A stretch of 64,000 bases of DNA from Motilimonas eburnea (GTDB taxonomy: Bacteria > Pseudomonadota > Gammaproteobacteria > Enterobacterales > CBDFNC01): positions 62,001 through 126,000 of the forward strand of contig NZ_JAIMJB010000004.1 of NCBI RefSeq assembly GCF_021295345.1, written 5' to 3'. A program made the translations under genes and the position numbers. Numbering within the stretch: position 1 is the first letter of the stretch; each line of letters starts with the position of its first letter. The notes below the pieces were generated by a model, which was not told where the DNA came from, searched no databases, and was given only the letters and a program-made list of their open reading frames with translations. Below are positions 44,385 to 55,760 of the stretch, in pieces.

Positions 44385-44504
44385 TTGCCCCGCCACATCA
44401 TCACGCTTCTAATGCGATTAACCTCTTGGTTTACTATCAATAATTCCATCTTTTAATAATCTCAGGCTAAACTAAACAGGAGCCCCACACGACAGGAGCA
44501 CTGG

Positions 44505-47500
44505 ATGTTAAATGTGGACGATTATTTCTCACCATCCATACTGGATCGCCCACTTGATGCACTGTGGCATAACCTCGCAGAGCATTACCTTTGCCAAGAG
44601 CACCCCCTTATATTACAAATGCAAAACTATGCCTGCATTAGTAGCTGGGAAATGTCCAAAACCACTCAGTTAGCGGCCAATATTATTGCCAGAGTGAGAG
44701 CAGATAAAAGCCAAAAGAGCTTAGCGCAAGCTTTCCTTGAGGAGTACAACCTCAGTAGTCAGGAAGGCATATTGCTTTTGTGCTTAGCAGAATCGTTAAT
44801 GCGTGTTTCAGATGCTGACACCTTAGACAGCATACTACGGGATAGGCTCAGCCAAATAAACTGGGCTAAGCATGTCAAACATTCCGACTCCTTTCTTGTT
44901 AATGCGTCAACTTGGGCATTATTACTGACCGGGCGATTAACCCCACAACCTGAACAGAAAATGACGGTAAAGCAAGGGGTTAAACATCTCATCAGCCAAC
45001 TAACAGAGCCCATTGTCCGCAAAGCCTTACACAAGGCCATCAACATGATTGCCGAACAATACATTATCGGTAGTACCATAGAGCAAGCATTGGCGACGAG
45101 TGTAACCCAAGCACAGCCTAAGGAACTCTCAACTGAGCTGGCGTTTTCATTTGATTATTTAGCCGAAGCGGCCCTGATCAACGAGCAAGTACAACAGGCA
45201 AAACACCAATATATTCAAGCCATTCATCATATTGCTCATCACAACCGCCAGCATCAGCGACACGACAATATTTCAATCAGACTCTCGGTGTTGCAACCCC
45301 AATTTGACTATCGCTATCGACAACATGCTATCAGTGAATTAATGGCAACTTTACTCCCCCTCCTTGAGCTAGCCCAGGCATTAGATGTAGGGGTGTATTT
45401 AGACGGAGAAACGGCCACGCGATTGGAATTGTGTTTAACCGTGTTTGAGCGCTTAATTAGCCATTCATCCCTACGCGGTTGGGGCAAACTCGGGATCGCC
45501 ATACAAGCCTATTCCAAGCGCAGCTTAGCCAGTCTATGTTGGTTAGCCGCCTTGGCCAAAAAGCAACAAACAAGTATTCCCATCCGCTTGGTTAAAGGGG
45601 CTTATTGGCGTGAAGACATGCGTCAAGCCCAGCTTAACCACCTGAGCGACTTCCCTGTTTTTACCAGTCAAGCGGCCACGGATATCAGTTTTCTATGTAA
45701 TGCACGCTGGCTGCTGTCGCACTATGTTACTCCCTATCTCAAGGCTGAATTTGCTACCCATAACCCCCATACGGTGGCCGCACTGGAAGTGATGGCGGCG
45801 CAGCACCCCATTAAAATGCAAAAAGTGTACGGCATGGGTGAGCCTCTTTATACTATTCACCCTCAGCCCAGCTTGTGTGTGTTAGCGGCATTTGGCCCCC
45901 ATCATCAATTGGTGCCATTTATTTTAAGGCGCTTGCTTGATTTTGCTGCTCAACCTGGCTTTGTGCCACAGTTGCAGTCAAAACAACAACCTTTAAGTGA
46001 GCTTATAGAGCACCCGATTGATAAATATGCCACACTTTCGCCAGCAGAGCGCCCTGCGCCCTCGGCAAAAGAGACGCTTTTTAGTATCAATCTTCCTTGC
46101 CAACATACTCTCAACCATTGGCTACAAGCTTGTGCTCCCTTTCTCAGTCAGGTTGAAGAGTGCCGCTCAATCATTCATCACTCTGGGACGTTAAATCCAG
46201 CGCACGAGACACAGGCGAACGCGGCATCAATGGGCCAACTAGCTTGCCCCCACGCCATAGATACCCGTTACGCTCACCTACATTTCGCCAGCAAAGCCGA
46301 TTGTGAGCTAGCCGTGAGCGCAGCCCAACAAGGTTTTGATAGCGGGCAAAAGCCGCCCCTAGAGCAACGTAAACACATGTTAATCGAGTTTAGCTCTACC
46401 TTAGTTAACCATGCTCCCTTACTACTTGCTCGATACATGGCAAGCACAGGGCAGCCTATCTTTGCCGCTGAAACAGAGCTTAGGTTAGCCATTAAACTGT
46501 TTAAACAAACCCTAGAGCAAGGCATCCACCTATTTGACGAACAAGAAGTCAGCCTAGCCGATCCCACGCCTTATCACTGGCAACGCCAAGGCCGAGGTGT
46601 ATGGCTTTGTTGCCCAGAGCCCACCCATCCACTGATCACTTTATTAACCCAACTCGCGGGGGCGCTGATTTGCGCCAACAGTGTCATTGTTGCCTGCTGC
46701 CCGACAAGCGCGAGCATTTGCTCACAGCTTGTGCGCTTATTGCAACAACAAGGGTTAGCCGAAAACGGTTTACAATTGATTATCAGCGACCCTAGTTGGA
46801 CATTGCCTTTACCTGGCTCTTGTATGGCTAAACTCAATGGTATCAGTGGCTCATTCACTCAAGAACAACGCCAACAACTGAATCAGATTAATCAAGACGT
46901 TAACAACAAGCAGCAACAAGCCATCAAACACAACGTCATGAACATGATGATCATTGACAACTCAACGGCATTTGAAGATCTTATCAGCGTCATCTTAACT
47001 TTGGCCTTTGACTTAGCGGGCCAATCTCCCACCAGTTTAAAGCTGATTTGTGTTGAGCAAGACATTGCCGACGAGTTTATATACCTACTTAGCAATGCCA
47101 TGATTGAATTAGATATTGCCAATCATGATCTTAGTCAGGGCTGTGTTGGGCCCTTACTCAATGCCGCTCGATTAGACATGTTCAACCAGCATGCCAAGCA
47201 GTTGAGCCAACAGGCAAGCTTATTACGTCAAACGCCGATGGCACATGATCTGAACGGGTATTATGCCCCCCCCTATTTGTTTCAGGTTGACGACTTACAA
47301 CAAATTAACGCCGAAATTAAAGGGCCTGTATTGCACCTCTATCGGTATTCAAACTCAACGTTGCAACCGCTGTTAGATGAGCTCAATCGTATTCAAGCGA
47401 AAGGTTACTGCTCAATCCACAGTCGACATCAAACACGGTTACGTCAATTAGAGCATGGCATATTAGGCCGCCAACTTATTATCAATCAAAACCACAGTCT

Positions 47501-47612
47501 GCCCTTAGCTGCCTACTATGCAACCTTTGATGATCAGCAAGCAGGTATCACCTATAGCCAATTGGAGGCGACCCTATGCCAAAACGCTGGCAAACCCTTA
47601 ACCAATCACTAA
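44505..47612 (+). CDS. PutA-like protein: proline dehydrogenase domain fused to a degenerate aldehyde dehydrogenase domain
   Basis: This 1035-residue protein has the PutA layout without the N-terminal DNA-binding domain. The helical arm is at about residues 1-230. The proline dehydrogenase barrel (about 235-490) has its flavin and substrate residues: AIQAYSKR, RLVKGAYWREDM, EFATHNPHT, GMGEPLY and LRRLL. The C-terminal half aligns with the P5C dehydrogenase domain of PutA but lacks its catalysts: the usual GQRCSA is AGQSPTS (no Cys), the ETGG glutamate is gone, and the NAD-site lysine and the glycine-rich end are changed. So it may oxidise proline to P5C but not P5C to glutamate. AGGAG lies six bases before the ATG. 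The next gene overlaps it by 37 bp. Confidence 0.85.
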   Translation: MLNVDDYFSPSILDRPLDALWHNLAEHYLCQEHPLILQMQNYACISSWEMSKTTQLAANIIARVRADKSQKSLAQAFLEEYNLSSQEGILLLCLAESLMRVSDADTLDSILRDRLSQINWAKHVKHSDSFLVNASTWALLLTGRLTPQPEQKMTVKQGVKHLISQLTEPIVRKALHKAINMIAEQYIIGSTIEQALATSVTQAQPKELSTELAFSFDYLAEAALINEQVQQAKHQYIQAIHHIAHHNRQHQRHDNISIRLSVLQPQFDYRYRQHAISELMATLLPLLELAQALDVGVYLDGETATRLELCLTVFERLISHSSLRGWGKLGIAIQAYSKRSLASLCWLAALAKKQQTSIPIRLVKGAYWREDMRQAQLNHLSDFPVFTSQAATDISFLCNARWLLSHYVTPYLKAEFATHNPHTVAALEVMAAQHPIKMQKVYGMGEPLYTIHPQPSLCVLAAFGPHHQLVPFILRRLLDFAAQPGFVPQLQSKQQPLSELIEHPIDKYATLSPAERPAPSAKETLFSINLPCQHTLNHWLQACAPFLSQVEECRSIIHHSGTLNPAHETQANAASMGQLACPHAIDTRYAHLHFASKADCELAVSAAQQGFDSGQKPPLEQRKHMLIEFSSTLVNHAPLLLARYMASTGQPIFAAETELRLAIKLFKQTLEQGIHLFDEQEVSLADPTPYHWQRQGRGVWLCCPEPTHPLITLLTQLAGALICANSVIVACCPTSASICSQLVRLLQQQGLAENGLQLIISDPSWTLPLPGSCMAKLNGISGSFTQEQRQQLNQINQDVNNKQQQAIKHNVMNMMIIDNSTAFEDLISVILTLAFDLAGQSPTSLKLICVEQDIADEFIYLLSNAMIELDIANHDLSQGCVGPLLNAARLDMFNQHAKQLSQQASLLRQTPMAHDLNGYYAPPYLFQVDDLQQINAEIKGPVLHLYRYSNSTLQPLLDELNRIQAKGYCSIHSRHQTRLRQLEHGILGRQLIINQNHSLPLAAYYATFDDQQAGITYSQLEATLCQNAGKPLTNH

Positions 47613-48328
47613 GCGATTGGCGCAATCAACCACAGCTAGAAAGGTGCCACATTTTTCGCCATTGGATGAGTGAAATCCCCGACCACTTAACCAAGCTACC
47701 ACTCACACAAACAGAGTGGCAAGCCATAGATCAAATCAGCCGAGCATGTGATTATTTCTGCACTATGGCGGAAATCAAGCTCATTCCCCGCTTAACCCAT
47801 CACCATGAGCTCATCACAACGCGTCACTATTACCAAGGTAAAGGGGTCTACTGTCTTGGTGAAATCCCACTACCCGAACAGCACCAAGGCAAACCTGCAT
47901 CCATTGAATTAGCCCCAGCTAAAATAACGCATTTCACCCTATTGGTGGCCAGTGCTATCGCTATTTTACTGTGTGGAAACGGGGTCTTTATGCATGCTTA
48001 TCACCCATTAACTAAGTGGCAAAAGTCTTTACTTATCTCTTTATTTCGGGCCTTACCCAGCAACCTATTCCAACTCACCTCTAGCCTAAGTTGGCACACC
48101 ATCCACCAACAGCCAGAAATTGTTGGGTCTGTGTATATTCCCCATGCTGAGCAGCAAGTTACCCAAGCCTTTCAGCGCACGTTATTGGCCCGTCAAGAGA
48201 CCTTAGTACAACAAGTCTGCTTAGCCCCCAAACAAGCTTTAGCCCAAGTATTCCACCCCGATTGGCTGTATCAGTTCTGTGTTGCTGTCAGTGTCAGCCA
48301 CACCAACCAAGATCACCCGTGTAGATAA
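47576..48328 (+). CDS. Hypothetical protein coupled to the PutA-like gene, weakly aldehyde-dehydrogenase-like
   Basis: The 250-residue protein starts inside the PutA-like gene (37-bp overlap, different frame) with GGAGG seven bases upstream, so the two are translationally coupled. Residues about 118-170 (LLVASAIAILLCGNGVFMHA ... SNLFQL) resemble by pattern the N-terminal cofactor-fold segment of aldehyde dehydrogenases (AAxLAAGNxV ... GVFQL), but no catalytic motif is present. From memory, Vibrio genomes carry a similar-sized gene after putA, often annotated as a P5C dehydrogenase. It may be an accessory or structural partner (inference). No putP symporter follows. Confidence 0.55.
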   Translation: MPKRWQTLNQSLSDWRNQPQLERCHIFRHWMSEIPDHLTKLPLTQTEWQAIDQISRACDYFCTMAEIKLIPRLTHHHELITTRHYYQGKGVYCLGEIPLPEQHQGKPASIELAPAKITHFTLLVASAIAILLCGNGVFMHAYHPLTKWQKSLLISLFRALPSNLFQLTSSLSWHTIHQQPEIVGSVYIPHAEQQVTQAFQRTLLARQETLVQQVCLAPKQALAQVFHPDWLYQFCVAVSVSHTNQDHPCR

Positions 48329-48476
48329 ATGACCCTAGAGCGAACAAGAAATACAAAATAGCCCCCGTAAAGTGAGCTGATCATAGGTTCCCTTCGTTAA
48401 ATCATGTTAGATTGATTAAAAAGACATTAACTCTTACTTTATTTATTGAATTTAATGACTCACAAGGATGTTTCCT

Positions 48477-49478
48477 ATGCTACACCCGTCAACAAAACTG
48501 GCCGCTCTGTTGGCCTGTGCGAGTTTTTTACCCCCCTCTTTCGCGCGCCCAATGGCGGACGAAGCGGGCTGGCAATTTACCCTAAACGTGAATGCTGGAT
48601 TTATGCAATCCCAATCACAAATAAGTACCGACAGTGATAACAAGGTAACCGAAGATCTGAATAACAAGGGTAAACAAGTGGATTCCGCCATTGTGTTTCC
48701 CCTTGCCAGGTTGGACTACACCTTTGACGACTTAAAAACACAACTCTTCATCGGTAATAGCCTTGAAAACGTCTCCCAAGGCCAGTTCCAATTAGAAGTG
48801 GGAGGCAAGCATCAATTGGCCAGTGGCAGTACCATCACCTTGGCTTGGATCCCCTTACTGCCCAGTTTTCAAAAAACCTGGCAAGATCCTTACTTACAAA
48901 ACCAACACCGCGATAAAACCGATCAAGATACACAAGGGTTACGATTTGCTTGGGAGAACATTGCAGGCAGCTTGTTTAGTGTTAAATATGGCTATGCCAA
49001 AAACGACCTCGATCATGAGCGTAGCGGCCAGAGCTTAGGGCTTTCAGCGCCTGAACTACGCTCGCTGGATCGCAACAGTGACTACCACAGAGGCAGCCTA
49101 GAAATGTTAGTGCCACTAGGCAATGGCTTATTCTTTGAGCCGGCCCTGACTTATACCCGTGGTGACGCCAAAGGGGATGCCATGAGTTATGACGAATATG
49201 GCACCCGACTGAGTTTAGTCAAACTGTATAACAAGCATAGGATCGCCGGGAACCTGTTCTACAGCCGCGCTGAATACGATCAAACCAATCCCGTGTTTAA
49301 CCGCAAGCAAAAAGACGACAATTGGGGTGCATTTGCATTTTACAGTTACAAAGCCCCCTTTAATTGGCAGAACGCGAGTTTCACCTTGTTTGGCGTATGG
49401 ACTGACACTCATTCCAACATTCGTTTTTATGAATCCGACATGTTTAGCCTAGCTGCGGGTATGGCCTACACATTTTAG
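48477..49478 (+). CDS. DUF2860 outer-membrane protein (copy A)
   Basis: This 333-residue beta-rich protein has a signal peptide (LHPSTKLAALLACASFLPPSFA) and a C-terminal phenylalanine (GMAYTF), as in outer-membrane barrels. DUF2860 landmarks are FIGNSLENVSQGQF, AWIPLLPSFQKTWQDPYL, KNDLDHERSGQ and FAFYSYKAPFNWQN. The start is ATG 48477 because AAGGA lies eight bases upstream; the ATG at 48468 overlaps that site. It converges with the kinase gene, overlapping by 4 bp. Its paralogue B lies at 53.0 kb. The function of the family is unknown; porin-like or channel activity is possible. Confidence 0.86.
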   Translation: MLHPSTKLAALLACASFLPPSFARPMADEAGWQFTLNVNAGFMQSQSQISTDSDNKVTEDLNNKGKQVDSAIVFPLARLDYTFDDLKTQLFIGNSLENVSQGQFQLEVGGKHQLASGSTITLAWIPLLPSFQKTWQDPYLQNQHRDKTDQDTQGLRFAWENIAGSLFSVKYGYAKNDLDHERSGQSLGLSAPELRSLDRNSDYHRGSLEMLVPLGNGLFFEPALTYTRGDAKGDAMSYDEYGTRLSLVKLYNKHRIAGNLFYSRAEYDQTNPVFNRKQKDDNWGAFAFYSYKAPFNWQNASFTLFGVWTDTHSNIRFYESDMFSLAAGMAYTF

Positions 49479-52913: not shown

Positions 52914-53026
52914 TTAGAGAACCTTTACTTACAATTATTGACGTTTTTCCCTAACTCTATGACAGATTTCTCCCTGTCCTTGCGTCATCTTAATCAACAA
53001 GAATGACACCATTAAAGGGAATAATC

Positions 53027-54109
53027 ATGGTTAGGCTAGCGAAATCAACAATCACTTCAACACCCGTTTTACCGACTGTTTCAACAGCTGTTTCAACAAC
53101 TGTTCAGCGCCACTCAAGATGGAAAACCCTCACCATTGGCGCATTACTGTTAGCGCCAACGGGGGCATATGCAGATTTAGCACAAGAACCAGGGTTTGAT
53201 TTTATTTTGAATCTTAACGTCGGAGTTGGCGAAGTCACGTCACAACAGAACACCAGTAAAGACAATGCGAGAACGGCTAGCCTTCAGAGCAATGGCAAAC
53301 GAGAAAGTGGCCTCAGCGCCTTTGTATTAGGTCGACTTTCCTACACCTTATCTAACAACAAAACGCAATTTTTCTTTGGTAACAGCGAAGACGATGTGGT
53401 GCTCGGAGATTTTAAGGCTGAGCTGGGTGTCAGCCAAGAATTTGATGATGGCACTGTGTTTACCCTCGCCTACATTCCACTGTTAGCGAAAACGCAAGCG
53501 TGGCGAGACCCTTTCTTGGTTAATCAGAAACGACGTAAAACCGACGTAACATCTCAAGGCTTAAGAATGCGCTTTGACAACTTGTTTGATCTGCCATTAA
53601 AGCTGCAATACACCTGGGCCCAAGCCAAATACGATAATGAGCGTAGCGGCCATAATAAACAATTAGATCTCAGCCGTGAGCAACAAGCCTTATTAGTGCG
53701 CGATAGTCACTTACATCAAGCCTATATAGAATATGCGTTTGAGCTAAGTGAAGGCCTTGTTATTCAACCTGGGCTGACGTACACCTTAGGCGACGCCAAG
53801 GGAAAGGCCATGAAATACGACTACATTGAAATGCAATTACCCCTGCTCACCCTGATCAACGAACGAAGCCACCTCACCACCAGTGTGTTTGCGGGTCAAG
53901 CTAACTATGACGCTCGCCACCCTGTATTTGATAAGGTACGCAAAGATAACAGCCTCGGTGTATTTGCCTTTTACAGTTACCGCGCGCCATTTGATTGGCA
54001 AAATACCACCTTCACGGCCATGGCGACCTACAATGAGGTTGACTCCAACATTAACTTCTATGACGAGCAAGGCATGGCTGCCTCTATCGGCCTGGCTTAC
54101 GCTTTTTAG
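53027..54109 (+). CDS. DUF2860 outer-membrane protein (copy B)
   Basis: This 360-residue paralogue of copy A has the same landmarks (FFGNSEDDVVLGDF, AYIPLLAKTQAWRDPFL, YDNERSGHNKQ, FAFYSYRAPFDWQN) and ends in GLAYAF. The start is ATG 53027 with AAGGGA upstream. The N-terminus is longer than in copy A: about 25 Ser/Thr-rich residues precede the hydrophobic signal segment (LTIGALLLAPTGAYA). It is divergent from the MipA/OmpV operon and shares its regulatory region, so co-regulation by the two-component system is plausible. It ends 7 bp before the convergent gene. Confidence 0.85.
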   Translation: MVRLAKSTITSTPVLPTVSTAVSTTVQRHSRWKTLTIGALLLAPTGAYADLAQEPGFDFILNLNVGVGEVTSQQNTSKDNARTASLQSNGKRESGLSAFVLGRLSYTLSNNKTQFFFGNSEDDVVLGDFKAELGVSQEFDDGTVFTLAYIPLLAKTQAWRDPFLVNQKRRKTDVTSQGLRMRFDNLFDLPLKLQYTWAQAKYDNERSGHNKQLDLSREQQALLVRDSHLHQAYIEYAFELSEGLVIQPGLTYTLGDAKGKAMKYDYIEMQLPLLTLINERSHLTTSVFAGQANYDARHPVFDKVRKDNSLGVFAFYSYRAPFDWQNTTFTAMATYNEVDSNINFYDEQGMAASIGLAYAF

Positions 54110-54116
54110 CCAGTGA

Positions 54117-55760
54117 CTAAAACTCGGTGCGAGCGTTAAAGGCGCGCACCGACTCTTGGTAACACTGCCATAACACCAAGCACAAGGCACTAATATCCTG
54201 GTTTTGCCGATGCTGCGCGACCAACTCGCGCGCGACTAAGGCTAACATGGGCAAAGCTAACTGCTCACTTAGCTGGATCAGGGTTTCACTATTTTCCATG
54301 ACCCCTTGCTGCTTGGTTAAGGCTTCTGCGGCAGCGGCAAGATCAAACAAAGCTTGGGGCACTTGCGGCATCAAATGTTGCTCTTGATCTAAAATCTGTT
54401 TTTGTTGCATCACCTCATTACTGGCAAGTAAAGTGAATGCTTGCTCGCTGGGTAATTGCGTCTGCAGTAAATGCTCCAATTGAGCCACACTGTCTTCGTC
54501 AGCTGGCATCGATATGCAAGGCAGGCAGCGTAACACGTCAAATAGCCCTACAGGATAAACGAGCAGCCCATCAACACGAGCTTGAAATGAGTGTACGTCA
54601 TGCCAAGACCAATGCTGACTGACAGCGAGCAATAAGGTATCCGGCTCTAATACGCCATCTAGGTTACTCAAGTGCGCTAAGCGTTCATCATCAGGGATTT
54701 GTTTTGGCCCGTGAAGACGCATGTCGCAATCTACCACCACACATAATGAGGCAGACTGGGCCTTATCTGCTTTTATTCTATCAGCCAGCCCTCCCTCATC
54801 CGCGACAAGCTCTGCATTAAAGCCCTGCTGAGTCAATTGTGCCAGCAAGCCATTAAGCTCCGCTCCGAGCAAAACAAATTGCCACTGATGTGCTTGCGCC
54901 CTGCCCAGCTGTTGCAGATAGCCAGCGTGAGAAGTCGACATCACACTGGGCATCTGCCACTGAGGTGTCACGGCTTGCTCGGGGCAAATATCAAAATAAC
55001 TGACCAAGGTATCCAGCTCTTCTTCAAGCTGGCTTTTCAACCTTTTAGCTAACATGGCATGATTTGGCAGCTGACTTTCTAGATACAGGTATTGGCTGTT
55101 TTCTATCATTTTAGGCAACAACTTAGCCCAATGTTGATAGGTGCTGGTGCGTAATTCTCGATAATAACTCAAGCGCTCTTTCAAGGCGGCCAGTTCGTCA
55201 GCAAAACAAAACTTAAGATGGCTTATCTGCTCACATCTTTGCTTATCGATTTCTTTTATTTCCAACAATGAAAGGCTGAGTTTGCGTTTGTCCTGCTCTA
55301 GCTGAGCCTTAGCTTTTCTTTCATGTGCTAAGTTTTTTTCAAGCTGAGATTGTTTATGCTGCAACGCCGTTAACTGCTGCTGTTGCCAGTACAGGGCGTC
55401 CACTACAGGCTTATACTCAACCGTTTTCATTCCCCTTTCAAACAAGGGCTTGCCTTCATAAACTTGAGCTTCAAGTTGCTGATAAGCCCTACGGCGGGCT
55501 TGTTGCGATTGTTGATATTGACGTTTCTCACCCTTCGCTTGATGCCAAGTCGCCCACTGCAGTACGAGGAGTAAAACGATAACCACAGGTTGCCAAGGCG
55601 CTAGCCACTGCCAAAGGGAATGCAAGCCACTGGCGGGCCAGATCGCTAATTCCAAGGAAACGCCCAAAGCCTGCCAAGGCTGGGGGTAAACCACAATCAA
55701 TAAGCCAATCAATACAGCGTAGATAGCGCGAAAAAAAACCACTCTTGCAAATGCTGCCAT
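54117..55760 (-). CDS. Membrane coiled-coil protein with a degenerate receiver-like region
   Basis: The 547-residue protein has two N-terminal membrane helices (about 8-30 and 56-75) and a long coiled coil (about 80-190, Gln/Lys/Glu-rich). Residues about 295-410 look like a response-regulator receiver: WQFVLLGAELNG in place of the acidic-pair strand, CVVVDCDMRLHGP at the phospho-acceptor strand (Asp kept), LLLAVSQHW at the Ser/Thr strand and LLVYPVGL where KP is expected (Lys lost). The C-terminal helical part could mimic an HPt domain but has no phospho-His motif. It resembles a hybrid kinase stripped of its catalytic core. AAGGA lies before the start. The function is unknown. Confidence 0.65.
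   Translation of the reverse strand: MAAFARVVFFRAIYAVLIGLLIVVYPQPWQALGVSLELAIWPASGLHSLWQWLAPWQPVVIVLLLVLQWATWHQAKGEKRQYQQSQQARRRAYQQLEAQVYEGKPLFERGMKTVEYKPVVDALYWQQQQLTALQHKQSQLEKNLAHERKAKAQLEQDKRKLSLSLLEIKEIDKQRCEQISHLKFCFADELAALKERLSYYRELRTSTYQHWAKLLPKMIENSQYLYLESQLPNHAMLAKRLKSQLEEELDTLVSYFDICPEQAVTPQWQMPSVMSTSHAGYLQQLGRAQAHQWQFVLLGAELNGLLAQLTQQGFNAELVADEGGLADRIKADKAQSASLCVVVDCDMRLHGPKQIPDDERLAHLSNLDGVLEPDTLLLAVSQHWSWHDVHSFQARVDGLLVYPVGLFDVLRCLPCISMPADEDSVAQLEHLLQTQLPSEQAFTLLASNEVMQQKQILDQEQHLMPQVPQALFDLAAAAEALTKQQGVMENSETLIQLSEQLALPMLALVARELVAQHRQNQDISALCLVLWQCYQESVRAFNARTEF

Follow-up and report, generated by a model that had tools for sequence, protein, structure and literature searches.

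Architecture and predicted fold of PutA2

Does a PutA-like gene whose active sites have degenerated still encode a working protein, or is it a relic that has by chance escaped a stop codon? The locus that raises this question, here called putA2, lies in a window of 64,000 nucleotides of Motilimonas eburnea (assembly GCF_021295345.1, contig NZ_JAIMJB010000004.1, positions 62,001 to 126,000). An earlier sequence-only reading had placed an open frame at positions 44505 to 47612 of the window, and we confirmed these coordinates for a protein of 1035 aa. The frame is uninterrupted, with no stop, frameshift, or truncation by which a pseudogene would be recognized. Its 3' end overlaps a second open reading frame, orfB2, that the earlier reading did not report. 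The main features of the locus are listed below.

44494..44498, + strand: Shine-Dalgarno-like AGGAG upstream of putA2
44505..47612, + strand: putA2, PutA-like protein of 1035 aa with both active sites degenerate (open reading frame, Pfam, alignment, model)
44505..44744, + strand: N-terminal arm of PutA2 (residues 1-80), relatively its best conserved part
44745..45104, + strand: alpha domain (residues 81-200; Pfam and regional identity)
45105..46049, + strand: proline dehydrogenase (PRODH) barrel (residues 201-515), 64/105 near-invariant positions kept
46245..47609, + strand: aldehyde dehydrogenase (ALDH)-like half (residues 581-1035), 46/137 near-invariant positions kept
47564..47568, + strand: Shine-Dalgarno-like GGAGG upstream of orfB2 and within putA2 (sequence)
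47576..48328, + strand: orfB2, stand-alone PutA C-terminal (ALDH-superfamily) domain of 250 aa, overlapping the end of putA2, terminal GGNAxLL motif lost

Consistent with the earlier alignment of the second half with the PutA ALDH domain, Pfam detected Pro_dh-DNA_bdg (residues 75-186), Pro_dh (210-487), and Aldedh (585-995) in that order, and the protein is PutA-like from end to end. The arm, alpha domain, PRODH barrel, and ALDH domain lie in a single chain with a predicted PutA fold, and PutAs are its best relatives of known structure both by sequence and by AlphaFold2 model. In this model (mean pLDDT 75.9, pTM 0.78), the PutA fold is retained with a TM-score of ~0.77 to SmPutA, confidence is high for most of the barrel, and pLDDT falls below 50 across most of the last 40 residues of the chain. 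PutA2 is thus like bifunctional PutAs of the type A architecture (PDB 3HAZ and 5KF6; PRK11904) in domain order, predicted fold, and full-length similarity, but it differs from them in that both active sites are degenerate and in scoring 663 bits against NCBIfam PRK11904, below the curated cut-off of 747 bits. Its orthologues in three other species of the genus pass this cut-off (1183 bits in G001, 1220 in G002, and 1314 in G003). The motif GGAGCACTG ahead of the putA2 start is common to the window copy, G001, and G002. Promoter and terminator scans gave matches no more frequent than in shuffles.

Loss of the ALDH active site

We aligned PutA2 to E. coli PutA and 56 other PutAs and tabulated the residues that were invariant in 57/57 of these references; the Glu883 motif was instead read from alignment blocks. 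In SmPutA, ALDH residue roles have been assigned to Cys844 and Glu810, and a C844S substitution disables ALDH activity (PMC12398946). The ALDH half of PutA2 showed the following replacements.

46623..46625, + strand: T707 at the position of the oxyanion Asn779
46692..46694, + strand: A730 at the position of the NAD-site Lys802
46911..46937, + strand: former ETGG stretch (residues 803-811), without Glu (Glu883 site)
47028..47030, + strand: P842 at the position of the catalytic Cys917 of E. coli PutA, within GQSPTS
47490..47609, + strand: C-terminus, aldehyde anchor loop gone through substitution and deletion

Further changes included Arg916 to Ser, Ser856 to Gln, and Phe1020 to Lys, with Glu1018 being kept. 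The sequence-only reading had called this half dead because of the missing Cys and Glu, the Lys-to-Ala change, and the destruction of the glycine-rich C-terminus, and each of these losses held up in our comparison. We also considered a catalytic Cys/Glu pair that was displaced but in place, and the sequence alignment contained none: the sole Cys in residues 775-870, C849, aligns with a Cys in both E. coli PutA and the intact G003 copy, and there is no Glu within ~12 residues of the lost one. A frameshift behind the scrambled C-terminus was ruled out, as the other frames show no homology. Judged by its sequence, the ALDH half of PutA2 is catalytically dead.

Damage to the PRODH half

In contrast to the earlier description of an intact proline dehydrogenase, the PRODH half also has altered catalytic positions, with 64/105 near-invariant barrel positions kept. 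Lys329 is the PRODH catalytic base, and Tyr540, Tyr552, and Leu513 surround proline (PMC10651016). The base and one of these pocket residues are replaced in PutA2 at the following positions.

45279..45281, + strand: R259 at the position of the catalytic base Lys329
45882..45884, + strand: L460 at the position of Tyr540

Other replacements are Leu513 to V441, Tyr552 to F472, and Glu559 to D479, and every one of these changed residues is invariant in 57/57 references. The PRODH half is thus damaged as well, and these replacements suggest that both activities have been lost. Alternatively, PutA2 might still be an enzyme whose barrel holds FAD and either oxidizes proline slowly or, with its pocket reshaped, acts on a different amino acid, the product being released without channelling to an ALDH site. 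The retention of Asp370, Arg431, Tyr437, and the carboxylate-binding pair Arg555/Arg556, the confident prediction of most of the barrel, and an identity to G002 of 0.49 in the barrel versus 0.29 in the ALDH half are in line with such residual activity. We nevertheless consider it improbable, given that the catalytic base has become Arg, that the equivalent K110A substitution abolished activity of M. tuberculosis PRODH (PMC10651016), and that Tyr540, Leu513, Tyr552, and Glu559 have all changed. Of the three roles earlier offered for this protein, damage to the PRODH half makes that of a P5C-releasing enzyme the least likely, and a proline sensor or a partner of a canonical PutA are roles it could still have.

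A second, canonical PutA in the same genome

A search for a second, canonical putA, as the sequence-only reading had proposed, identified a complete gene elsewhere in the genome. This gene, putA1, encodes a PutA of 1049 aa with all catalytic residues present and ~32% identity to PutA2. The locus consists, in order, of an AraC-type regulator gene (putR-like), putA1, orfB1, and putP; we assigned the putR and putP names presumptively, from the gene order and from how the locus resembles the known put locus of Vibrio.

PutA1 clusters with Vibrio sequences in our tree with a support of 1.0, within a cluster whose inner order is not resolved. For PutA1 of the window genome, identity is 75% with the PutA of a Vibrio-like family (f21) and 78% with PutA1 in the genus; the corresponding SrmB values are 58-59% and 89-90%. 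The neighbours of putA1 also differ between the window genome and G001/G002. Since the likeness of PutA1 to the Vibrio-like family is near the own-genus level, unlike that of SrmB, and since its neighbours differ, horizontal acquisition is the straightforward reading, and putA1 was probably acquired, once or twice, from a Vibrio-like donor.

Graded loss of PutA2 across the genus

The gene order srmB-putA2-orfB2-DUF2860 is conserved in 4/4 species of the genus examined (the window species, G001, G002, and G003), and putA1 is present in 3/4, with G003 lacking a second PutA. We scored loss at 272 near-invariant positions (30 + 105 + 137), of which the PutA1 copies keep 271-272. G003 PutA2 keeps 243 and has no tabulated catalytic residue changed, leaving it catalytically complete by sequence. 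G002 PutA2 (227 kept) is without Asn779 and Ser856, with Cys917 still there, and G001 PutA2 (220 kept) is without Asn779, Ser856, Cys917, Arg916, Glu1018, and Asp370. The window copy keeps 135 and has the losses of Asn779 and Ser856 in common with G001 and G002. Because G002 retains Cys917 while sharing these two losses, Cys917 would most simply have been lost twice. The three species with putA1 therefore show graded loss of PutA2, deepest in the window species, and the putA1-free G003 is complete; the comparison comprises four genomes, and the contrast with a putA1-free species is one genome.

The PutA2 copies form a deep clade in the tree, and identity to other PutAs amounts to only ~50% even for G003 PutA2. 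We found no PutA2-like copy above 33% identity outside the genus among 394 sampled genomes of the order (E 1e-150). A deep clade and low identity are what one would expect if putA2 were a paralogue or foreign gene with a long separate function and putA1 were the vertical copy, lost in G003. Such a history appears quite unlikely to us, as G003 PutA2 is catalytically complete and the sole PutA of that genome, putA2 is syntenic in 4/4 species while the neighbours of putA1 differ between the window genome and G001/G002, and PutA1 is far more Vibrio-like than SrmB.

Elsewhere in the window, a 547-aa open reading frame at 54117-55760 (- strand) had no Pfam match at E 1e-5. Two DUF2860 genes (48468-49478 and 53003-54109), ~3.5 kb apart, flank a block that includes a histidine kinase, a response regulator, and a MipA-family gene.

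Selection on putA2 or decay

The sequence-only reading had argued that a frame without a stop means that selection maintains the fold and had proposed dN/dS analysis across close relatives. For G001 and G002 this argument was borne out, as putA2 in these species is under purifying selection, with an omega of 0.116 over the whole gene (dS 0.78; p = 1.6e-49 versus omega = 1) and of 0.050 for residues 1-200, 0.124 for the barrel, and 0.127 for the ALDH half, each far from 1. Because the ALDH half has an omega of 0.127 though the oxyanion Asn is gone in both species, it must still be constrained there. Between the window putA2 and its orthologues, dS is saturated and dN/dS of the window lineage is uninterpretable, leaving indirect support for the argument in the window species.

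This indirect support came from the frame, the fold, and the distribution of change. In neutral simulations, a first stop appeared within ~66 substitutions in 95% of runs, with ~32 stops at 42% identity, indicating that putA2 would be unlikely to drift neutrally by more than ~2% and still lack a stop. Conserved hydrophobic columns are still hydrophobic in the window PutA2 at 90/97 positions in the barrel and 95/117 in the ALDH half. Compared with G002, the window PutA2 has regional identities of 0.59 (arm), 0.55 (alpha domain), 0.49 (barrel), and 0.29 (ALDH half); the corresponding values for PutA1 between the window genome and G001 are 0.74, 0.83, 0.83, and 0.76. In 861/861 reference pairs (<60% identity outside the arm), conservation of the arm falls below that of the remaining protein; in the window PutA2 it lies above, with an arm log-odds difference of +0.80 versus at most -0.48 among the 861 pairs. 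The PutA2 arm does not change more slowly than the PutA1 arm; rather, the remainder of PutA2 changes faster. This uneven conservation argues against a plain pseudogene and points to assembly or another N-terminal function. Together, the open frame and the spared N-terminal arm speak against plain neutral decay of the window putA2, and selection on putA2 has presumably continued in this species.

A less favourable reading is that putA2 is a functionless late pseudogene that is without a stop by chance, its frame having been kept by past selection on a weak residual activity. The deep losses at both active sites and the C-terminus, a partner frame without its C-terminal motif, and the difference of 58% of PutA2 residues from the sister species versus ~10% in SrmB are compatible with a dying gene, as are the 46/137 near-invariant positions kept by the ALDH half and the low pLDDT (<50) of most of the last 40 residues, which would also fit slow decay. 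We view this reading as unlikely, considering the 1035 open codons, the open overlapping partner and retained ribosome-binding sites, the improbability of more than ~2% neutral divergence without a stop, the sparing of the arm and alpha domain, and the purifying selection on sister copies with a crippled ALDH site.

Proposed history and role of PutA2

We favour the reading, to which we assign a probability of roughly 55%, that PutA2 is a displaced native PutA that has turned into a double pseudoenzyme and is kept as a full-length protein. PutA2 would be the native PutA of the genus, and a Vibrio-type put operon (putR-like gene, putA1, orfB1, and putP) would have entered the lineage and taken over proline catabolism, after which putA2 would have been released from catalytic selection. 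The ALDH site would have been lost first, with the oxyanion Asn and the dinucleotide-site Ser disappearing before the three species split and the catalytic Cys later and separately, and the PRODH catalytic base and pocket would have been lost next, in the window species. The gene was not discarded: putA2 keeps an open frame, ribosome-binding sites, and its overlapping partner, and PutA2 keeps its predicted fold, with the N-terminal arm and alpha domain preserved most of all. We infer this direction and order of events, as well as the displacement of PutA2 by PutA1.

Given the retention of the frame, ribosome-binding sites, partner gene, fold, and arm, PutA2 most likely works as a non-catalytic protein, possibly one that assembles or binds a ligand, such as a structural or regulatory subunit. 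Its molecular role as a subunit or regulator is our guess; a non-catalytic subunit or sensor would put the retained arm, and the barrel with its carboxylate-binding Arg pair, to the most economical use. In having lost catalytic residues and kept the predicted fold, PutA2 resembles a pseudoenzyme, and a literature search of partial coverage found no earlier report of a PutA pseudoenzyme. The losses at this one locus fall into a series over the four species, beginning with an intact enzyme and ending with a copy in which both sites are lost, with partial loss in between, and the series is associated with a replacement operon having arrived. This series allows tests of the order in which activities are lost in a bifunctional substrate-channelling enzyme and of which part selection still needs.

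The overlapping partner gene and split PutA

A profile built from OrfB2 and related proteins hits PutA in its ALDH region and in its C-terminal region (SmPutA 1085-1234 and BjPutA 970-998). The OrfB2 model (pLDDT 79.7) has an ALDH fold; compared with BjPutA, it reached a Z score of 18.6 and 3.2 A over 224 residues, and other ALDHs scored equally well. OrfB2 and its relatives therefore resemble the C-terminal domain of type B/C PutAs (SmPutA 1085-1234 and the E. coli PutA C-terminus) by profile and by an ALDH-like predicted fold, but OrfB2 differs in being encoded by a separate gene and, in the window copy, in lacking the terminal GGNAxLL. The window OrfB2 instead ends in SVSHTNQDHPCR, whereas the partners of PutA1 keep GGNAxLL and the sister OrfB2 copies keep the motif or a near form; the partner in the window species has thus decayed too.

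PutA2 and this separate C-terminal subunit might together have become a non-catalytic complex, with proline, P5C, or flavin state as its signal or the incoming PutA1 as its assembly partner, an idea that we regard as a long shot. If true, the replaced native enzyme would now regulate its replacement. The T. brucei AdoMetDC prozyme is reported to be a pseudoenzyme paired with an active paralogue (PMC6221367). PutA2 is similar in that a dead homologue coexists with an active copy but differs in that the active PutA1 looks horizontally acquired and the PutA2 complex is hypothetical.

Stand-alone counterparts also occur after putA in Vibrio, Photobacterium, Neptunomonas, Marinomonas, Psychrobacter, and others, and no orfB2 homologues were found in plasmids. 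In several marine gammaproteobacterial genera, we observed such a split PutA, with a separate C-terminal ALDH-superfamily gene ending in GGNAxLL directly 3' of putA (L044:8143-8841, L045:8144-8851, L042:8181-8891, L040:8147-8848, L050:8148-8837, L082:8228-8920, and L039:7613-8317). Where the PutA chain of these genera was scored, it contained no match to the terminal motif. The available portion of the paper on the three-type PutA classification (PMC5293562) does not mention the split arrangement. Finally, orfB1 (L037:5260-5964 and L039:7613-8317) is ~51-52% identical between the window genome and the sister species, compared with 77-78% for putA1 and 83-84% for putP, a low identity that could stem from acquisition on separate occasions or from rapid evolution of the split domain.
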